Made by a program: the position numbers and the translations under genes | Assembly: GCF_003387075.1 (NCBI RefSeq) | Contig: NZ_QUMQ01000001.1 | Span: 6,944,001 to 7,008,000, forward strand | Direction of reading: 5' to 3' | Source: Asanoa ferruginea | GTDB lineage: Bacteria; Actinomycetota; Actinomycetes; Mycobacteriales; Micromonosporaceae | DNA: 64,000 nucleotides | In this document: positions 4,594 through 39,611 of the stretch, in pieces | Layout of the letters: each line of letters starts with the position of its first letter | Numbering within the stretch: the stretch's first letter is position 1 | The notes under the pieces: generated by a model | Seen by the model: the letters and a program-made list of their open reading frames with translations, nothing else | Told to the model about the DNA's origin: nothing | Database searches by the model: none

Positions 4594-5910
4594 ATGGGGC
4601 CGGTGAAGGGCGACGGCGTTCCCGCCGTCGCCCCGGTTGCCTCGGTTGTCTCTTCTGCCCCTGACGCCGAGTCGGCGCTGCGGCAGTTGCGGTCGCGGGG
4701 CCGGCTGCGCGGGGTGATCGCGCTGTTCGGCCCGGCGTTCGTCGCCGCCGTCGCCTACGTCGACCCGGGCAACTTCGCGACCAACTTCACCGCCGGAGCC
4801 AAGTTCGGCTACACGCTGGTCTGGGTCATCGTCGTCGCCAACCTGATGGCGATGCTGGTGCAGTACCTGTCGGCCAAGGCCGGCGTGGCCACCGGCCGCG
4901 ACCTGCCGGAACTGTGCCGCGAACACCTACCGAAGCCGGTCTCCCGCGGCCTGTGGGTGCAGGCCGAGATCATCGCGATGGCCACCGACCTGGCCGAGTT
5001 CGTCGGCGCCGCCGTCGGCCTCTACCTGCTGTTCGGGGTGCCGCTGTTCGCGGCCGGCATCATCACCGCGGTGGTCGCCTTCGCGATCCTGGCCCTGGAG
5101 CAGCGCGGCTACCGCCGCTTCGAGCTGGCGATCGTCGCGCTGCTCGGCATCGTCTTCCTCGGCTTCCTCTACGACCTGATCGTGGTCGGCGCCCACCCGG
5201 CCGCGTTCGCCGCCGGGCTGGTGCCGCACCTGGCCGGCGGCGACAGCCTGCTGCTGATCTGCGGCATCATCGGGGCGACGGTCATGCCGCACGTGGTCTA
5301 CCTGCACTCGGCCCTGACCAAGTCGCGGGTGGCCTGCCGCGACGACGCGGAACGCCGCGAGTTGCTGCGCTTCCAGCGCCTCGACGTGGTGGTCGGCCTG
5401 GGCGCGGCCGGCCTGATCAACCTGTCGATGCTGGTCATCGCGGCGTCGCTGTTCAACGGCCGCGGCCACGCCGACGTCGACTCGATCGAGGCGGCCCACG
5501 CCGGCCTGGGCCAACTCGTCGGCGGCGGTGCCGCGCTGGCCTTCGCCGTGGCCCTGCTGGCTTCGGGGCTGTCGTCGTCGAGCGTCGGCACGTACGCCGG
5601 TCAGGTCGTCATGCAGGGTTTCATCCGCCGCCAGATCCCGCTGTTCGTGCGGCGGGCGGTGACGATGGCGCCGGCGCTGGTGGTGCTCGGCCTGGGCCTG
5701 CCGGCCACGGACAGCCTGGTGATCTCCCAGGTGGTGCTGTCGTTCGGCATCCCGTTCGCGCTCGTGCCGCTGCTGATGCTGACCCGCCGCCGCGACATCA
5801 TGGGCACGTTCGTGAACAACCGCGTGACCAACCTGGTGGCCGCGACGATCGCGGGGTTGATCATCGCGCTGAACCTGTTCCTGCTCTACGACACGTTCCT
5901 CGGCGGCTAG
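4594..5910 (+). CDS. Nramp-family divalent metal (Mn2+/Fe2+) transporter
   Basis: 438 aa polytopic membrane protein. It has the two signature motifs of Nramp/MntH carriers: DPGN in the first transmembrane helix (YVDPGNFATN, about residue 50) and MPH in helix 6 (ATVMPHVVYLHSAL). About eleven hydrophobic helices can be traced. Nramp proteins import Mn2+ or Fe2+ with protons. It starts 8 nt after the chaperonin stop and is probably the last gene of the monooxygenase operon. Iron supply for the di-iron hydroxylase is a reasonable inference; a general manganese role cannot be excluded. I left the symbol mntH out because function here may be operon-specific. Confidence 0.9.
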   Translation: MGPVKGDGVPAVAPVASVVSSAPDAESALRQLRSRGRLRGVIALFGPAFVAAVAYVDPGNFATNFTAGAKFGYTLVWVIVVANLMAMLVQYLSAKAGVATGRDLPELCREHLPKPVSRGLWVQAEIIAMATDLAEFVGAAVGLYLLFGVPLFAAGIITAVVAFAILALEQRGYRRFELAIVALLGIVFLGFLYDLIVVGAHPAAFAAGLVPHLAGGDSLLLICGIIGATVMPHVVYLHSALTKSRVACRDDAERRELLRFQRLDVVVGLGAAGLINLSMLVIAASLFNGRGHADVDSIEAAHAGLGQLVGGGAALAFAVALLASGLSSSSVGTYAGQVVMQGFIRRQIPLFVRRAVTMAPALVVLGLGLPATDSLVISQVVLSFGIPFALVPLLMLTRRRDIMGTFVNNRVTNLVAATIAGLIIALNLFLLYDTFLGG

Positions 5911-6131
5911 AGCGCCATCATGATCAGGCCGGCAACGGTGACGCCGGCGCTGACGACCAGAAACGCCGGGTTGTGCGCACTCCACCAACGGATGCGGGCC
6001 TGCACACAACCCGGCACCTCGTCGATTCTCACCACGCGAAGAGCGAAGAGATTGAGCGTGGCGGTCAGGACCCCGAGCGCGCCGAGCCCGGCCACCAACT
6101 CGGCGACCTGCCCAAACGTCGTCGGCTCCAT
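5907..6131 (-). CDS. Small two-helix membrane protein
   Basis: 74 aa. An N-terminal hydrophobic stretch (about residues 10-30, VAGLGALGVLTATLNLFAL) and a C-terminal one (about 54-73, AFLVVSAGVTVAGLIMMAL) flank a short loop with Arg and Trp (ARIRWWSAHN). I do not recognise a family. It is convergent with the Nramp gene, overlapping it by 4 nt, and lies downstream of the large Sel1/NTPase gene on the same strand, separated from it by a strong hairpin. Function unknown. Confidence 0.6.
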   Translation of the reverse strand: MEPTTFGQVAELVAGLGALGVLTATLNLFALRVVRIDEVPGCVQARIRWWSAHNPAFLVVSAGVTVAGLIMMAL

Positions 6132-6212: not shown

Positions 6213-8432
6213 TCACGAGCCGTCGCCCGCGGGGAAATGAGTCGCCAAGATCCTGGCGGCGTCCCGCGCGCCCGACGATTTCGCGTGGAGAAACCATTCC
6301 CGGGATTCGTCGATCCGGCCCGCGGCCAAGAACAACGCGCCCAGCAGCATCATGGCGGGAGCATGTTGCGTGTCCGCCGCGCGCCGCAGCCACGCCTCGG
6401 CCTCGGCGAGGTCGCCGTCCTCGGCGAAACGCCTCCCGAGCGCGGTCATGGCGGTGGGCTCGCCGCGTCGGGCGGCTTCTTGCAGCAGCTCCTCGGCCTC
6501 CTCGGTGGCACCCCGGTGGGCAAGCAGGCCGTGCAACACCATCATCCCCATCACGTCGCCGGCCTCGGCCGCGCCGCGCGCCACCCGCTCGGCGCGAGCC
6601 AGCTCGCCGCGCTCGGCATAGATGGTCGCGAGCAGGGCCTGCGCGTCTGCCCGTCCCGCATCGGCCGCCCGGCGCAACCGAGGCTCGGCCTGGCTCGGAT
6701 CCTGCTGTAACAGCGCGAGGGTCGTGAGGGCGGCGGAATGGCCGGCATCCACGGCGCGCTGCGCCCATTGATCTGCTTCCTCGACCGCGCCGCGCTCGGC
6801 AAGCAGCAGGGCGAGCCGCACCATGGCCTGCGGGTGGCCCGCGTCGGCGGCCTTCCGCAACCAACGCTCCGCCTCGGCGTCGTTGCCGGCACGCCGCAAC
6901 AGCAGGCCCAGGACGCTCATGGATCCGACGTCACCCGCGGTCGCGCCCTGCCTCATCCAGCGCTCGGCCTCGGTCGTGTCGCCGCGGAGCAGGAACAGAT
7001 AGCCCAGCGGTCCCAGCGCCGGGGTGCAGCCACCCTCCACCGCGCGCCGCAGCCATTCCTCGGCCTCGTCGGGCCGGCGGAGTTGGACGAGCAGCATTCC
7101 CAGGAGGAGCATCGCCCATTCGTTGCCATGGTGGGCGGCACGGAGCCACACCCGCTCGCTGACCTCGTACACCTGCTCCTGGGATGCCGCGAGTCCGATG
7201 GTGACCAGGTGGTGGTCGTCGCCGACGTCGGACAACGCCGCCCAGACCGGCGCCCGCACCCGCTGCGCGCCCACCGGCCCGGCACCGGCAGCGGTCCGGT
7301 CCAACAGATAGTCCGACGCCAGGTATCGCCGGCCGGCCAGCGGAATCAGGCAGGAACTCGCACCCATCATCGGCTGGGAGGCCCACTCCAACGCGGCGTC
7401 GAGACTGGGCAGGTCGCCCCGATTCCGCCACGGCGCCGGAAGGTAGTGGCGGTGCAGGACGTCGAGAACGGCGAAGGGCACTGGCGCGGCGTAACCGGCC
7501 CGCCGGCAGTCGACTGCGGCGCTGATCACCGCTTGGCCGCTTGCGAACAGCGCACCCTCCCCGACGGACCAGCGCTGCAACAGTGCCGGCGCCGCGGCCA
7601 GACTCTCGCCGAACCCGCCCTCGCCGTCGAGCGCGCCGCGGACCCGGTCATCGAGGGTCGACCGCGCCCGGCCGCGTTCCGCGTCGGTGAGCTGCGCCGA
7701 CACCGCGATCATGCGACGAGGGTCGAGCTGCGTCAACAGTCTCGCGCCCGCATCCGTGACCTCGGGAGCGCCCTCGTCGCGGATCCAGGCCGCGTGTTGG
7801 AGCTTGGCGAGTTCGGCATCGCGAATCGTGGCGATCACGACGACATCGGCCGGTGCGCAGAGGTGCTCCAGCAGCGCCGTGTCCAGTCCGCCGGGGCCGA
7901 GGAAACGCTCGAGGTCATCGAGCCACACGACGGCATTCGCGGTGCCAGCCAGCTTGAGCAGTGCGGCCGGCCCGTCGGGGCGAAACAGCCGACGCCCTTG
8001 GCACATCCGACGAATCGCCTCGGTCGCGCTGCGGGTCTTGCCTGCTGCCGCCGGCCCACGGAGGCAGACGAAGCCGCCGTCCGCGACCATCCACCGCAGA
8101 CTCTCGTCGAAGTCGCGCTCGACGTAGGTCGGCATTGTCGGCGCGGTGTCCGGTCCGCCAGGGACGGCGGGTTTGACGCCCATTGCCAACGGGTCCAATG
8201 TCGTCGACACCGTCAGCTCGGGCGGTGCCTTTCTTGACGGCTGTTGCACCACCCGGGCCGCGGCCGTCGCCAGCAATGTCGCGAGCGCGAGCGTGATCGT
8301 CCACGCCAGCAGAGGGTGGTCGTCGACCCACGCCTCAAGGTCATGGGACAACACGTTCGTCAGGAGCGGCAGGATCAAGATCGTGATCAAAGACGTCGCG
8401 AGGGCGCCGATCACCTGCCGCCGGTGTCGCAA
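6213..8432 (-). CDS. Membrane-anchored P-loop NTPase with C-terminal Sel1/TPR repeats
   Basis: 739 aa. Two N-terminal transmembrane helices (about 7-28 and 41-62) are followed by an NTPase module with Walker A GPAAAGKT (126-133) and Walker B VVWLDDLERF (about 168-177). A middle region of about 230 aa follows, then from about residue 440 to the end there are roughly eight Sel1/TPR-type helical repeats (AEEWLRRAVEGG, AERWLRKAADAGH, AEAWLRRAADTQH and others). This is the layout of STAND-type signalling ATPases: sensor repeats, switch NTPase, membrane output. The start is TTG at 8432 after GGGAGA. It is monocistronic. No adjacent effector or known defence gene is present, so biological role is unknown; a stress or phage sensor is speculation. 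Confidence 0.8.
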   Translation of the reverse strand: MRHRRQVIGALATSLITILILPLLTNVLSHDLEAWVDDHPLLAWTITLALATLLATAAARVVQQPSRKAPPELTVSTTLDPLAMGVKPAVPGGPDTAPTMPTYVERDFDESLRWMVADGGFVCLRGPAAAGKTRSATEAIRRMCQGRRLFRPDGPAALLKLAGTANAVVWLDDLERFLGPGGLDTALLEHLCAPADVVVIATIRDAELAKLQHAAWIRDEGAPEVTDAGARLLTQLDPRRMIAVSAQLTDAERGRARSTLDDRVRGALDGEGGFGESLAAAPALLQRWSVGEGALFASGQAVISAAVDCRRAGYAAPVPFAVLDVLHRHYLPAPWRNRGDLPSLDAALEWASQPMMGASSCLIPLAGRRYLASDYLLDRTAAGAGPVGAQRVRAPVWAALSDVGDDHHLVTIGLAASQEQVYEVSERVWLRAAHHGNEWAMLLLGMLLVQLRRPDEAEEWLRRAVEGGCTPALGPLGYLFLLRGDTTEAERWMRQGATAGDVGSMSVLGLLLRRAGNDAEAERWLRKAADAGHPQAMVRLALLLAERGAVEEADQWAQRAVDAGHSAALTTLALLQQDPSQAEPRLRRAADAGRADAQALLATIYAERGELARAERVARGAAEAGDVMGMMVLHGLLAHRGATEEAEELLQEAARRGEPTAMTALGRRFAEDGDLAEAEAWLRRAADTQHAPAMMLLGALFLAAGRIDESREWFLHAKSSGARDAARILATHFPAGDGS

Positions 8433-33235: not shown

Positions 33236-33841
33236 ATGCGTGCAACACGTTTGATCGGGGTCGTCGCCTGCCTGCTGTTCGCAGCGGCCTGCTCGCCCGT
33301 GCAACACCAGGTCGGTGACGCGGCGCCGGCCGGCTCACCGGCGCCGACCGTGGCCGCGCCTACCGCGACCGCTCCCACGGTCACCCCGACCACCCCGGCT
33401 TCGACGCCTTCTTCCACCATCGAGGCCACCAGGGCGCCGCTTCTGCTCGGGCCGGCCGGCTACGGCGCACTGAAGATCGGCATGACCGAGAAGCAGGCCA
33501 AGGCGACCGGGATGCTGACGCCCTTCACGAACTCCGGCTGCCGGATCGCTTATCTGCGCGGCTTCCCGCAGGGCAAGGGCGCCGTCTTCGTCTCGCCCAC
33601 GCTCGGGCTCATCGCCATCAACGCTTGGGGCACCATGAAGACGCCCGAGGGAGTACGCGTGGGCACCTCGACCGCCGAGATGCGACGGATCTACCCGAAG
33701 CGGCAGTTCGTCGACGGGGACGGCGACTACGAGAAGGTCTTCGTGAAGGTGAGCAACCAGGCCGTCTACCGCATCGCCGTGAACGGCGGCAAGGTCACCG
33801 AGTTGACCCTCCAGCATGCGCACCAGGACTGCTACGAGTAG
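33236..33841 (+). CDS. Probable lipoprotein, unknown function
   Basis: 201 aa. Signal MRATRLIGVVACLLFAAAC, with Cys19 a likely lipidation site though the -3 residue is Ala rather than Leu. A Thr/Pro/Ala-rich linker to about residue 65 precedes a compact domain beginning GYGALKIGMTEKQAKATGML, a pattern shared with other small actinobacterial secreted proteins; two cysteines (GCRIA, DCYE) may pair. ATG 33236 with CAGGAG upstream. Its 3' end overlaps the convergent kinase gene by 10 nt. Confidence 0.75.
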   Translation: MRATRLIGVVACLLFAAACSPVQHQVGDAAPAGSPAPTVAAPTATAPTVTPTTPASTPSSTIEATRAPLLLGPAGYGALKIGMTEKQAKATGMLTPFTNSGCRIAYLRGFPQGKGAVFVSPTLGLIAINAWGTMKTPEGVRVGTSTAEMRRIYPKRQFVDGDGDYEKVFVKVSNQAVYRIAVNGGKVTELTLQHAHQDCYE

Positions 33842-35262
33842 CGGCCGGCCTGCGGTGCCAGCCTGTTGGACACCCGCAGGCTGGCCAGGATCTCGTCGGT
33901 GACGTCGGCGTCGCCGACCTGCTTGACCTGCACGTAGACGCCGAAGCCACGACCCGGCACGGCGAACACCACCTCGCTGAAAGAGACGGAGGAGCCACAC
34001 GATGTCCAGCGCCGCACCCGGGCGAGATTGCCGTCCACATACACGGTGCGCTGTGGCTCCTCCACACACGACGGGTGGCTGGGCAGCGCCGGGGTCGGGC
34101 TGCCGGCGAGCAGGGCCCGGCTGGCGCCGACGAACACGCCGGGCATGGCGCTGGCGGGGTCGGGCCAGACGGCGAGGTCCGGTGCGGCCACCAGCCCCGG
34201 CGCGTGGCCGGCGGGAAGGCGCAGCACCGACGGGTTCCAGCCGTCGTCCTTCAGCTCGCCGGCCCAGCCCGGTGGCACCGCGACAGACAGATCACCACCG
34301 GCATCGTGTACGCGTACCCAGCCGTACCGAGCCGGCAGCGTGGCGCTGGCACCCGTGGCCGCCAGCACCGCGGCGATCGAGATGCCGGCGCCGACGGTCC
34401 GCCGCAGCCACCGGAGCGCCCGGGTGCGGCTGGTCTCGCGTTCGAGCGCCGCGGTGACCCGCTCCAGTTCGTCGACCATGGCGGTGGCGGAGTCCCAGCG
34501 TTGCCGGGGGTCGGGTTGCAGGGCGCGGGTCACCAGTTCGTCCACCATGGACGGTAGGCCGGGCCGCGCCTGCGACGGCCGGCGGGTCCTGGCCGAACCC
34601 GACCAACCCGGCTCGGGCGGGCGGCCGGTCAGCATGTGGTAGAGGGTGGCGCCGATCGCGTACACGTCGGCTCTGGTGTCCAGACCACCGCCGGGGGTGG
34701 CCTGCTCGGGCGGCATATAGCCGGGCGTGCCGGCGGCGATCGTGAAGCCCGACGCGTTGGCCAGCGCCTTGGCCAGGCCGAGGTCGGCGACCAGGACCCG
34801 ATCCCGGCCGGCCGTGGGTTCGAAGAGCACATTGGACGGTTTGAGGTCGCGGTGCAGCACGCCGGCCTCGTGCAACGCCGCGACGGCGCGGCCGATGTCG
34901 ACGGCGACGCGCAGGGCCTCCCGCACCGGCAACGGTCCGGCGGAAAGCCGATCGGCGAGCGTGCCGCCGGCCACGAAGGGCATCACCAGATAGGGCCGGC
35001 CGTCGGGCAGCTCACCCACGTCGAGCACCCGCACCAGCAGCACCGAGTCGGCCCGGCGCATGATCCGCGCTTCCTGCTCGAACCGCATGCGCAGGTCGGA
35101 GTGGTAGGACCAGTTGTCGGCCAGCACCTTGATGGCCACCTGGGCGTCGAGCGCGTCGTCGGCCCCGAGCCACACCGTGGCGAACGCTCCAGACCCGATA
35201 CGCCGCACGATGCGATATCGGCCGATCTTTTCCGGCACTGACACGCCCGTATTATGGGGCAC
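33832..35262 (-). CDS. Membrane Ser/Thr protein kinase (Hanks type)
   Basis: 476 aa. Kinase domain residues 15-270: glycine loop IGSGAFATVWLG, Lys45 in VAIKVL, catalytic loop HRDLKPSN (Asp139), DLG in place of DFG (160-162), activation segment GTPGYMPPEQ. A juxtamembrane stretch of about 20 aa leads to one transmembrane helix (about 289-310). The 165-aa outer domain starts ARYGWVRVHDAGGDLSVAVPPGW and has a Cys pair (PSCVEE, TSCGSS) but no PASTA repeats. It is divergent from an ECF sigma gene with only 26 bp between starts, suggesting shared control and perhaps sigma-factor phosphorylation. Confidence 0.9.
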   Translation of the reverse strand: MPHNTGVSVPEKIGRYRIVRRIGSGAFATVWLGADDALDAQVAIKVLADNWSYHSDLRMRFEQEARIMRRADSVLLVRVLDVGELPDGRPYLVMPFVAGGTLADRLSAGPLPVREALRVAVDIGRAVAALHEAGVLHRDLKPSNVLFEPTAGRDRVLVADLGLAKALANASGFTIAAGTPGYMPPEQATPGGGLDTRADVYAIGATLYHMLTGRPPEPGWSGSARTRRPSQARPGLPSMVDELVTRALQPDPRQRWDSATAMVDELERVTAALERETSRTRALRWLRRTVGAGISIAAVLAATGASATLPARYGWVRVHDAGGDLSVAVPPGWAGELKDDGWNPSVLRLPAGHAPGLVAAPDLAVWPDPASAMPGVFVGASRALLAGSPTPALPSHPSCVEEPQRTVYVDGNLARVRRWTSCGSSVSFSEVVFAVPGRGFGVYVQVKQVGDADVTDEILASLRVSNRLAPQAGRYS

Positions 35263-35288
35263 CCAACGCGAAGAAACGGGGACCGCGG

Positions 35289-35849
35289 ATGGCCGACGAT
35301 CGTCACCTCGAAGACCTGGCCGCCCGCGCGGCGACCGGCGACACCGGCGCGCTGGACGCGCTGCTCAGCGCGATCGGCCCCCAGGTGTTGCGGCAGTGCC
35401 AGCGCTTCCTGCCGTGCCGGCAGGACGCCGAGGAAGCCTGCCAGGACGTGCTGTTGCAGGTCGCGCGCAACATCGACGGTTTCGCGGGGAGGTCGCGCTT
35501 CTCGACCTGGCTCTACGTCGTCACGGCCAACTGCGCCCGCCAGACCTACCGCACCCTCAAACGCCGGTCCAGCGAACAACCCACGGCGTTGCTCCCCATC
35601 GACGCCGCCGATCCGCGCACGACGAGCGTGATCGCGGGGTCGCGGCTCGACCTCCTCGACGCCCTCGAACGACTCGAAGCGCACCGCCCGGAGTTGGTCG
35701 CCCCGCTGGTGCTGCGCGACGTGTGCCAGTTGAGCTACGAGGAGATCGCCGAGCACCTGGCCATCCCGCTCGGCACCCTGAAGTCACGCATCCACGACGC
35801 CCGCCGCCACGTCCGCGCCTCCCTGGCCGGCACGACCGCCGACCGGTGA
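35289..35849 (+). CDS. ECF sigma factor next to a Ser/Thr kinase
   Basis: 186 aa minimal sigma-70 of the ECF class. Region 2 has CRQDAEEACQDVLLQVARNIDGFAGRS with FSTWLYVVTANCAR; region 4 has LVLRDVCQLSYEEIAEHLAIPLGTLKSRIHDARRHV. No anti-sigma gene is adjacent. The divergent kinase suggests it belongs to the kinase-linked ECF groups in which phosphorylation rather than an anti-sigma factor controls activity. Its stop overlaps the start of the propeller gene (GTGA). Confidence 0.88.
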   Translation: MADDRHLEDLAARAATGDTGALDALLSAIGPQVLRQCQRFLPCRQDAEEACQDVLLQVARNIDGFAGRSRFSTWLYVVTANCARQTYRTLKRRSSEQPTALLPIDAADPRTTSVIAGSRLDLLDALERLEAHRPELVAPLVLRDVCQLSYEEIAEHLAIPLGTLKSRIHDARRHVRASLAGTTADR

Positions 35850-37000
35850 TCCGGGCGGTCGTCCCTGGGCCCGTGGTCGAGCGGCTCGTGTGCCGTCCGC
35901 GCCTGCCGCTGGTCGCCGGCCTGGACGCCGGGCGTCCGGCGGTCCACGTCTGGGAGACCCCCGGCCTTCGTCAGGTCGGCAGCGTCGGCGCGGACTCGCC
36001 TGCCTACGCTGACGATCGGGCCGGGGGGACGCCGGCGGTGGCGTGGCATCCGCACGAGCCGTCGCTGATGGTGGCACTACCCGGTCGGGTCGTGCGGTGG
36101 ACGGCGGCCGGGGCTTCCGACGTGGACGGTGTCGCTCCGGCCTACAGCGGTCTGGCGTTCAGCCCGGACGGCCGGGAGCTGTGGGCGTCACCGTCCGGCA
36201 CCGGGTCAGCCATCCTCGACGTCCCTTCGGGAGTCGTCAGCTCCGGTCCGTGGTGGGACACCGGGATCGCGCCGCACCCGGCCGGCGGGCTGGTCGCCAC
36301 GGTCCATAGCGAGCAGGGTGCGACCCACGTGCTGTTCGCGCTCGTCGACGGCCGGGGCCCGATGCGCGTCCTGCGCAAGGCCTTGATCCTGGCGGCCGAC
36401 TCCTACGCGCCGCCGATCTTCAGCCGCGACGGTCGATACCTCGCGATCCGCGGCAACGCGTACGAGAACTCGTTGGATGTCTTCGCGTTTCCCTCGCTCG
36501 AGCTGGTGCTGAAGACCACGCTCGGCCAGCCCTACCCGGGCTATCCGCCGCCGGCGGACTGGCTCGAGAAGGCGAGCGCCTGGTCGCGGCACAACATCGC
36601 CTTCGCCAACCAGTCCGGCGTGCTCTGGGTGGGCACCCGGACCGGGCCGCTCGTCGAACTCGACCTGGCCAACCGCACGTGGGTCACCCACGACCCACTG
36701 CCTGGTTGTCGGGTGACCGCCCTGGCCGCCACGGCGGCCGGCGACCTCGTTGTCGCGACCGCCGCGGGTGAACTCGCGCTCGTGGCGACGCCCGACCGTC
36801 CGGCCGCGGACGCTGCCTCGCGGGATCTGGTCACCGCGTTCGTGGACAGCACCGAGGAAGTCGGCGACGGCGAACACGTGGTGACCGATGGGGATCGGAC
36901 CTGGACGCCCGAGGACCTGGCGACCGTGACCACCGCGGAGGATGACGATCCGATGTGGTTGCGGCACCGGGCCGCCATCAACAAGGTGATCCGCCGCTAG
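35846..37000 (+). CDS. Cytoplasmic WD40-like beta-propeller protein
   Basis: 384 aa from GTG 35846. Repeated blade-like segments include PAVAWHPHEPSLMVALPGRVVRW, GLAFSPDGRELWASPSG, PPIFSRDGRYLAIRGN and VTALAATAAGDLVVATAAGEL. No signal peptide or membrane helix is visible. The last 60 aa are acidic, then basic. Translation is coupled to the sigma factor by the GTGA overlap. It may act as the sigma factor's partner or sensor; that is inference. It converges on the methyltransferase gene with 4-nt overlap. Confidence 0.75.
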   Translation: MIRAVVPGPVVERLVCRPRLPLVAGLDAGRPAVHVWETPGLRQVGSVGADSPAYADDRAGGTPAVAWHPHEPSLMVALPGRVVRWTAAGASDVDGVAPAYSGLAFSPDGRELWASPSGTGSAILDVPSGVVSSGPWWDTGIAPHPAGGLVATVHSEQGATHVLFALVDGRGPMRVLRKALILAADSYAPPIFSRDGRYLAIRGNAYENSLDVFAFPSLELVLKTTLGQPYPGYPPPADWLEKASAWSRHNIAFANQSGVLWVGTRTGPLVELDLANRTWVTHDPLPGCRVTALAATAAGDLVVATAAGELALVATPDRPAADAASRDLVTAFVDSTEEVGDGEHVVTDGDRTWTPEDLATVTTAEDDDPMWLRHRAAINKVIRR

Positions 37001-37734: not shown

Positions 37735-39111
37735 CTACCCGCGGGACCGCGTCACCCGCCGGTCGTCGAGCCAGAGCGCCAGGCCTTTGCGACGGCGGAA
37801 GGCCACGATCGCGGCCAGCAGGAGGGGGATGAACGAGGTCCAGACCCAGAATCGGGGACCGACCCCGCCGGGTGGGTGCGCCTCGCGGGTGCGACCGCCG
37901 TGGACCACGGCGTCGGCGACGTCGATCGAGACCACGTCGTCGGGTGCGACCAGCAGGGTGGTCGGCGCGCTGGCGCCGGGCGAGAGGGCCAGGATCCGGA
38001 CGGTGCCGACATTGAAGTAGTCGATTCGGGAGTCCACATCGAGCGGTGAGTTGAACGCACCCGGCGCGTGCGGGCCGGGCACATAGGCGACCACCCGAGC
38101 CGACCCGTCCACGGCCCAGCCGAGCAGCCGGATGGCGGTCACGTTGGTGACGGTGGGCGTGTCGACCAGGCCGAGGTCCCGACCGGTGGCCGCGTCGACC
38201 CGCCCGAGGCGCCAACTGTCGATGCCGCGCCGGGCGACAGTGAGCGTCTGGGCATCGGCGCTCCAGGCGCCCTTGCCGGCAAGCTCGGCGTCGGCGGCGA
38301 GGGTGAACGACGCGAGCCGCCGGCCGTCCACGTCGCCGACGGTGACCGTCCGCCCGGTCTGGAACGCGAGCCTGGTGCCGTCGGGTGCGAACGCCACCGC
38401 CGTTCCCAGCCCGTCCTCGTTCTCGGCCTCGCCCAGCCGGGTGTGCCGGTCGGTGCCGGGCCAGACGACGCTCAGCACGTGCCGGTAGTCGGTGCGCTCG
38501 GCATCGACGGGAACCGTGGATCGCACCACGAGCGCCCGGCCGTCCGGTGACCAGGCCACCGGGTCGATCATGACCGTGCCGTCCACCCCGCTGCCCACGT
38601 CGCGACTATGTCCCGTCACCAGGTCGACGATCTCCACGGCAGAACGCAGGGAGGAGACGGCTCTGAAGGCGACCTGGCGGCCGTCGGCGGACAGCACCGT
38701 GTCCACACCGGCCCGCGCCTCGATCTCGCCCCGGATGATCCGGTAGCGGTCGTCGTGCGCGCCGACGACCGTGATGAGGCTGCCTTCATCGCCGTATTCC
38801 AGGCCCGAACCCTGACCCGTGAAGATCACCGAGGCCGAGCCGAGCCGCGGCCGATCCGTCGCGTGCAAGCTGCCGAGGGGCGGCACGCCGATCCGGTCGG
38901 GCAAGGCGGCGTCCGTCTTCCCGTCAGTGGTCGGAGCCGGGCTGGTGTCCACAAGGGGCAGCGCCGTGCCGACGAGAGCCAGCACCGCGGCGGCCGCGAG
39001 CCCGGCACGCCGGCGGGAGCGGCGTGCGGTGGCGAGGGCTTTCTCATAGACGGGGTACGCGGGCACGTCGCCCGCCGCGCCGTGCAGCGACTCACGCAGC
39101 CGGGTCGTCAT
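37735..39111 (-). CDS. Membrane beta-propeller (TolB-like) protein of a SigE-family operon
   Basis: 458 aa from ATG 39111, overlapping the sigma gene stop (ATGA). An N-terminal cytoplasmic segment of about 35 aa (RLRESLHGAAGDVPAYPVYEKAL) leads to a helix (about 37-52). A TolB-like propeller follows with blades such as DPVAWSPDGRALVVRS and TAVAFAPDGTRLAFQTGRTVTV. A second helix near the C-terminus (FWVWTSFIPLLLAAIVAF) precedes a basic tail. The topology would let an outer propeller talk to a cytoplasmic head that could hold the sigma factor, like an anti-sigma factor; no ZAS motif is seen. Confidence 0.8.
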   Translation of the reverse strand: MTTRLRESLHGAAGDVPAYPVYEKALATARRSRRRAGLAAAAVLALVGTALPLVDTSPAPTTDGKTDAALPDRIGVPPLGSLHATDRPRLGSASVIFTGQGSGLEYGDEGSLITVVGAHDDRYRIIRGEIEARAGVDTVLSADGRQVAFRAVSSLRSAVEIVDLVTGHSRDVGSGVDGTVMIDPVAWSPDGRALVVRSTVPVDAERTDYRHVLSVVWPGTDRHTRLGEAENEDGLGTAVAFAPDGTRLAFQTGRTVTVGDVDGRRLASFTLAADAELAGKGAWSADAQTLTVARRGIDSWRLGRVDAATGRDLGLVDTPTVTNVTAIRLLGWAVDGSARVVAYVPGPHAPGAFNSPLDVDSRIDYFNVGTVRILALSPGASAPTTLLVAPDDVVSIDVADAVVHGGRTREAHPPGGVGPRFWVWTSFIPLLLAAIVAFRRRKGLALWLDDRRVTRSRG

Positions 39112-39611
39112 CGCGGGCTCCTCTCCGGGGCGCGGTCGACCAGGTCGGGCGCGATGACCCGCAACCGGCGGATCGCGTCGTGCCCGTGCCGTTTCACGGT
39201 GCCGAGCGAGCAGCCGAGCACGTCGGCCACCTGTGCCTCGGTCAGATCCTCGAAGAACCGCAACACGACCACGGCCCGCTGGCGTGGGGTGAGCTGGCGC
39301 AGCGCCGCAGCCACGGCCAACCGGAGGGTGGTCGCGTCGGAGTGGTCGACGGCGTGCCGGTCGGTGGGCTCCGGCTCGAGGCGCTCGGCCGGCCGGCGCC
39401 GGCGCCACCAGGAGATCTGCTGGTGATACATCACGCGCCGGACGTAGGCCTCGGGATCGCCGTCCCTGATCCGCCGCCAGTGCCGGTAGGTCTTCGCGAG
39501 GGCGCTCTGCAACAGATCCTCGGCGAGCTGGTGGTCACCGGTGAGCAGGTAGGCCCGCCGCGACAACGCCGGCGAACGGGACACCACGAACTCGTGGAAC
39601 GTCTCGGCCAT
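39108..39611 (-). CDS. SigE-family ECF RNA polymerase sigma factor
   Basis: 167 aa. FHEFVVSRSPALSRRAYLLTGDHQLAEDLLQSALAKTYRHW is the signature of the actinobacterial SigE-family (ECF) group; region 4 reads LTPRQRAVVVLRFFEDLTEAQVADVLGCSLGTVKRHGHDAIRRL. The first gene of a two-gene unit with the membrane propeller protein (ATGA overlap). Likely responds to a cell-surface signal via that partner. Confidence 0.9.
   Translation of the reverse strand: MAETFHEFVVSRSPALSRRAYLLTGDHQLAEDLLQSALAKTYRHWRRIRDGDPEAYVRRVMYHQQISWWRRRRPAERLEPEPTDRHAVDHSDATTLRLAVAAALRQLTPRQRAVVVLRFFEDLTEAQVADVLGCSLGTVKRHGHDAIRRLRVIAPDLVDRAPERSPR

Follow-up and report, generated by a model that had tools for sequence, protein, structure and literature searches.

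How an extracytoplasmic function (ECF) sigma factor is controlled when no anti-sigma gene is seen beside it is the question raised by a locus of Asanoa ferruginea, which lies in a stretch of 64,000 nucleotides (positions 6,944,001 to 7,008,000 of contig NZ_QUMQ01000001.1) called the window below. Here the gene of a transmembrane Ser/Thr kinase diverges from that of an ECF sigma factor, which is followed by the gene of a beta-propeller protein (Table 1). An earlier note on this DNA had taken the three genes for one module, in which a signal would pass from the outer domain of the kinase by phosphorylation to the sigma factor, with the propeller as scaffold or sensor. Our analysis points to a smaller unit. 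The kinase-ECF pair is conserved and the trio is not, and comparison of the sequences makes it moderately probable that the kinase controls the divergent ECF by phosphorylating the linker between its sigma2 and sigma4 domains, with T112 as the likely switch and with no anti-sigma factor needed.

Hanks-type kinases are recognized by the kinase fold, the catalytic lysine and the HRD-K-N and DFG-type motifs. The kinase from the window shows a Pkinase match of 2.1e-38 (Pfam), and its residues K39, H131-R-D-L-K-P-S-N138 and D154-L-G are unchanged across 15 aligned kinases; judged by its sequence it is a Hanks-type Ser/Thr kinase. In line with the earlier description as transmembrane and free of PASTA repeats, it carries a single hydrophobic segment between kinase and outer domain (read by eye) and gave no match to PASTA in Pfam. 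An identity as PASTA kinase (PknB/Stk1) was discarded, as no PASTA was found and the NCBIfam model PknB_PASTA scored 208.6 bits against a cut-off of 450. The divergent gene on the plus strand codes, from its two Pfam domains, for an ECF (sigma-70 group 4) with sigma2 and sigma4 domains only. The absence of an anti-sigma factor was also borne out for the type that was searched, zf-HC2 being the only one, with no match in the window (150 of 185 candidates scored). The whole genome of 9.07 Mb has seven zf-HC2 matches, and five other ECFs have one within about 310 bp.

Lack of conservation had been named among the outcomes that would refute the module, and it was found for the trio and not for the kinase-sigma pair. 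In 150 genomes of the family we obtained 42 ECF matches at E <= 1e-20, located in 38 genomes, and fetched 40 of the 41 other loci (a match in G104 was left out). At all 14 family loci with at least 69% ECF identity the kinase including its outer domain lies divergent beside the ECF. A more distant family group (49–59% ECF identity) has the kinase in 17 of 22 loci, tail-to-tail and usually one gene away, the kinase of L081 being divided over two frames; two of the five loci without kinase end at contig edges. A search of the whole collection gave 562 relatives. We examined the 80 from named genomes that are most similar in their ECF, found with the DAEEACQD or the TSV stretch as seed, and all but one (79 of 80) have the kinase divergent and adjacent. 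They belong to Thermomonosporaceae (45), Micromonosporaceae (24), Nocardiopsidaceae (5), Streptomycetaceae (4), Streptosporangiaceae (1) and Pseudonocardiaceae (1). Only L129, from Pseudonocardiaceae, departs from this; just upstream of its ECF (5347–5958 of that locus) lies the gene of a small lipoprotein whose VP..W stretch resembles that in the kinase outer domain. The genome of A. ferruginea itself has 31 Pkinase matches in its 9.07 Mb, so that the chance of meeting one within 3 kb is about 2%; 3 of its 28 ECF matches have a Pkinase match within this distance.

The linker of this ECF reads DPR(T/R)TSV as consensus, and T112 and S113 are unchanged in 33 aligned ECFs. RTSV is also read in L078, L086, L090 and L091, which belong to the 22 loci of the more distant family group and are not part of this alignment. 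A class-wide survey of 394 genomes, with 8 candidates scored per genome, gave 76 ECF family matches in 72 genomes, clearly set apart by at least 196 bits against at most 132 for the next matches, and 74 of these loci were new. T112 is present in 59 of them, and at 58 of the 59 a kinase was found in the 10-kb stretch, 51 of these kinases no more than 450 bp away from the ECF and seven at 0.9–2.0 kb; in L279 the 5' ends of both genes overlap. The remaining 15 loci read R-V-S-V, with V112 in place of the threonine and S113 kept, and none of them has a kinase in the stretch. Nor was the kinase outer domain matched elsewhere in the 15 V112 genomes, whereas all six kinase-bearing controls gave a match (150 first-look candidates were scored in most genomes). 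In five V112 loci (L222, L226, L227, L232 and L247) a divergent gene, trehalose-phosphate synthase-like as read from its N-terminus, occupies the position of the kinase. Together with the window, the 194 related ECF loci (40 family, 80 named and 74 class-wide), which include loci fetched twice and some short stretches, amount to 178 distinct ECF sequences. Among these, T112 is found in 152 of 153 with a kinase at the locus and in 8 of the 25 for which none was scored, L086, L176 and L240 having been rescored by pairwise alignment. Two of these eight (L090 and L092) end at contig edges, and L282 does have a kinase.

We also inspected the linkers of other ECFs. Of the 69 next matches of the survey we fetched 20 (96–132 bits), taking 18 from the top 19 and two from further down, and the TSV motif occurs in none of the 20. 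A basic-Ser motif, RRLSSV, is present only in L327 and L329; L327 has an adjacent kinase (197 bits) and in L329 the contig ends there. The linker of a further kinase-linked ECF, L094, reads RRMSSV. The kinases of L327 and L094 differ in arrangement: one lies upstream of its ECF in the same orientation, and the other is divergent. In the genome of A. ferruginea, R.TSV was seen in none of the 12 ECFs that aligned through the linker (out of 20 other loci), and the ECF of L304, which has a weak kinase match at a distance of 1.1 kb, shows the linker DRPTGV.

These data suggest the following model. The outer domain of the membrane kinase, predicted to be PsbP/Mog1-like, would sense a signal from the envelope, in many relatives perhaps joined by a neighbouring lipoprotein. 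The kinase would then phosphorylate the linker DPR(T/R)TSV, for which T112 is the first and S113 the second candidate, and the negative charge might change how the sigma factor contacts RNA polymerase or release the sigma4 helix, which starts there. Activation would be more likely than inhibition. The signalling chain from kinase to sigma factor without an anti-sigma factor, as it had been proposed, is supported because the pair is conserved and the linker threonine goes with the kinase, and only the part of the propeller has to be taken out. A switch in region 2.2 as in ECF43 (EcfP/EcfK) was ruled out, as the acidic motif DAEE is kept and contains neither Ser nor Thr in the alignment.

Several observations weigh against the role given to T112. 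The V112 loci form one clade and represent one event, the tree (from whose counts the contig-end loci L090 and L092 were left out) shows just two changes of T112, and a sign test of T112 against the kinase on the tree cannot reach significance with so few independent events. T112 is kept at L129, L269, L087 and L091, near which no kinase was seen, and at L072, which also lacks a nearby kinase but whose genome encodes the outer domain at another place. For the 80 relatives from named genomes T112 was partly selected by the TSV seeds, though their kinases were not. Among the next-match ECFs, L335 and L334 stand beside kinase-like genes, with weaker matches than in L327, and lack the linker motif, and L337 shows a Thr-rich linker, DPTTTT, and no kinase. 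Furthermore, S69 tracks the kinase in part and T112 could be kept for structure as a helix cap. The kinase might control the sigma factor with T112 being only structural and the phosphosite located elsewhere, or with an unlinked anti-sigma factor as the target; that T112-S113 stand where the sigma4 helix begins, that other Ser/Thr are conserved too and that T112 persists at a few loci without kinase would fit such an explanation. We regard it as unlikely, since T112 follows the kinase most closely among all Ser/Thr columns and no zf-HC2 match is found in the window. Less likely still is a link by transcription alone: the kinase gene would be a target of the sigma factor, or both genes would be transcribed jointly, and the substrates of the kinase would be other proteins. 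This would agree with the short divergent promoter region that both genes have in common and with its -10-like hexamer, but it leaves unexplained why T112 was replaced when one clade lost its kinase and why a basic-Ser motif stands at the same site in other kinase-linked ECFs. The promoter region itself had been described as a gap of 26 bp. The divergent arrangement stands, and a size of about 44 bp is more likely because the relatives keep a start codon at the position of GTG 35244 (13 of 14 close relatives, against only L058 for 35262). Visual inspection of 15 aligned gaps shows a hexamer similar to the one in Table 1 in most of them, and it could be the -10 of a leaderless kinase transcript. 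The suggested promoter search gave a -10-like element and no complete promoter, the latter by a sigma-70 consensus scan in which no ECF-specific motif was used.

For the third gene the earlier prediction of a WD40-like protein was confirmed at the level of the fold, as all Pfam matches are below threshold and the model (predicted local distance difference test, pLDDT, 77.7) matches the WD40 domain 5yzv in Foldseek with E 5e-14 and TMt 0.70; as modelled, the product is a WD40-type propeller. Its start is ambiguous: from one candidate the gene would overlap the ECF stop codon in GTGA, and the translational coupling to the ECF claimed before is therefore no more than possible. This overlap and the fold are what speaks for kinase, sigma factor and propeller as one three-part signalling module. 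The co-occurrence survey, however, did not find the propeller at any of the 194 loci of related ECFs, be it in the family, in the named genomes or class-wide. Propeller relatives were matched in 12 of 150 family genomes, our strain included, and neither this ECF nor the kinase was seen beside them in 11 loci, one per other genome (L099 being just 6.6 kb long). The propeller alignment comprises nine of the 12, omitting L102, L103 (internal stop) and L108 (fragmentary). The gene after the ECF varies within the family and is common only to close relatives. A module of three parts is therefore hardly credible, a scaffold or sensor role of the propeller finds no support, and the propeller gene looks like a chance neighbour. 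Outside the family the gene after the ECF is often common within a clade, for example a sulfotransferase-like gene (named by reading) in Actinomadura. On the minus strand of the window (37735–39611) a second ECF gene (39108–39611) overlaps a gene (37735–39111) with a PD40 propeller match of 27.6 bits against a cut-off of 20.9, so that the 64 kb contain two ECF-propeller neighbour pairs, unlike in kind.

Kinase control of ECFs as such is not the distinct mode that had been suggested, since kinase-controlled ECFs are already described (PMC8999054, PMC13147305), and the kinase-paired ECF from A. ferruginea is a variant of this described kind. PMC8999054 names ECF43, 59, 61, 62, 217 and 283 as kinase-linked groups. 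The best known is ECF43, with EcfP/PknT from Vibrio parahaemolyticus and EcfK/PknS from Xanthomonas citri, where the ECF also stands beside a Hanks-type kinase and no anti-sigma factor is involved. In ECF43 proteins the acidic motif of region 2.2 is as a rule missing and a phospho-Thr stands there (PMC8999054), whereas our ECF keeps DAEE and has its candidate site in the linker. A parallel to this site is T106 of EcfK, a linker phosphosite that is required in vivo (PMC13147305). The other kinase-linked groups keep the acidic motif and may work by another, yet-to-be-found way (PMC8999054). For ECF59, 61, 62, 217 and 283, the last with an example from Nocardioides, that paper predicts kinase control from the neighbourhood, and a conserved Ser/Thr protein kinase (STPK) as neighbour is found here too; our kinase-sigma family may be ECF283, the actinobacterial kinase-linked group. 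According to PMC8103513, STPK-regulated ECFs have a replaced motif, with Ser in ECF59 and the former ECF60, which is not the case for our ECF. Similar to our proposal, SigH from Mycobacterium tuberculosis is phosphorylated by the Hanks-type kinase PknB in the sigma2-sigma4 loop (T106 and T110), but it has the anti-sigma factor RshA, which is also phosphorylated by PknB, and the meaning of the SigH phosphorylation is given as unknown (PMC13147305). ECF57, as described in PMC8999054, carries WD40-like repeats as a C-terminal extension of the sigma protein itself, different from the separate and non-conserved propeller gene of the window. Among open-licence papers we found no characterized member of our kinase-sigma family, and no account of a linker motif that tracks the kinase, of the PsbP/Mog1-like sensor or of the lipoprotein neighbour.

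Table 1: Position of the features at the kinase-ECF locus in the window.
Feature	Position	Strand	Basis or remark
Lipoprotein	33251..33841	+	tail-to-tail with kinase, 10-bp overlap; similar lipoproteins at the same site in relatives
Transmembrane Hanks-type Ser/Thr kinase	33832..35244	-	likely start GTG 35244; alternative start 35262
Kinase outer domain, predicted PsbP/Mog1/LpqN-like fold, two invariant Cys	33835..34326	-	AlphaFold2, Foldseek
Single hydrophobic segment, probable membrane span	34333..34395	-	by eye from translation
Kinase domain	34483..35217	-	Pfam, residues 16-260
TATTAT/CATAAT hexamer in divergent gap	35250..35256	.	6 nt before kinase GTG
ECF sigma factor, 186 aa	35289..35849	+	Sigma70_r2 1.9e-13, Sigma70_r4_2 2.2e-10 (Pfam)
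Region 2.2 acidic motif DAEE, retained	35424..35435	+	alignment
Sigma2-sigma4 linker motif DPRTTSVIAGSR	35610..35645	+	T112 = codon 35622-35624, then S113
WD40-type beta-propeller protein, judged outside module	35846..37000	+	alternative start 35873

The outer domain of the kinase, 164 residues long, has no match to a Pfam family and was modelled by AlphaFold2 with a pLDDT of 93.5. The predicted fold resembles that of PsbP, Mog1p, DcrB, Apa, MTC28 and LpqN in Foldseek; these matches are consistent but weak (template modelling score around 0.5), only one reaches E <= 0.001 (best E 5e-4), and unrelated-looking small folds such as BT_1490 and Tsi3 score about equally. C87 and C110 are unchanged in 63 aligned sequences out of 89 available domains. 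A lipoprotein gene at the end of the kinase gene is a frequent neighbour in related Micromonosporaceae loci, and the one of the window has no Pfam match. The lipoproteins at this site (window, L058–L071 and L109–L132) have the signal peptide and a G-x-A-x-P-like stretch in common and are otherwise unlike, one C-terminal part being a DUF4232 and the others having no Pfam match over the cut-off, so that sensor domains are possibly exchanged on a constant kinase-sigma core. Lipobox and G.A.P-like motif occur near the kinase end in 42 of 160 distinct kinase-bearing loci, with 45 matches in 0.50 Mb there against 11 in 1.27 Mb elsewhere, counted with a pattern that was devised post hoc from the same loci and of whose matches a few look spurious (L065, L167 and L266). 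The motif is absent from nearly all Actinomadura loci, and the association of lipoprotein and kinase is only a lead. In 7 of 13 Streptomycetaceae-type loci (four assigned by name and nine by inference) a gene for a SpoIIE-type (PP2C-like) phosphatase lies at most 1.5 kb from the ECF gene and could be an off-switch countering the kinase. Such a PAS/GAF/SpoIIE-type gene is located at 6675–9092 in L149 and is also present in L127, L171, L228, L251, L259 and L262, the phosphatase having been checked with Pfam in L149 and L228.

In summary, the module is redrawn as a kinase and a sigma factor, often with a lipoprotein and without the propeller. As a broader proposal, to which we give somewhat less than even odds, a widespread actinomycete ECF family may keep its acidic core-binding motif and be switched by phosphorylation of the linker DPRxTSV at the start of sigma4. 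Here a PsbP/Mog1-like sensor would belong to a kinase dedicated to this task, next to a lipoprotein with domains exchanged between lineages, which would represent a second route to kinase-controlled sigma factors that might also exist in the form RRxSSV. With one named residue, a clade that has lost the kinase and changed this residue, and a second kinase-linked family with a like motif, the question has become testable by point mutants.

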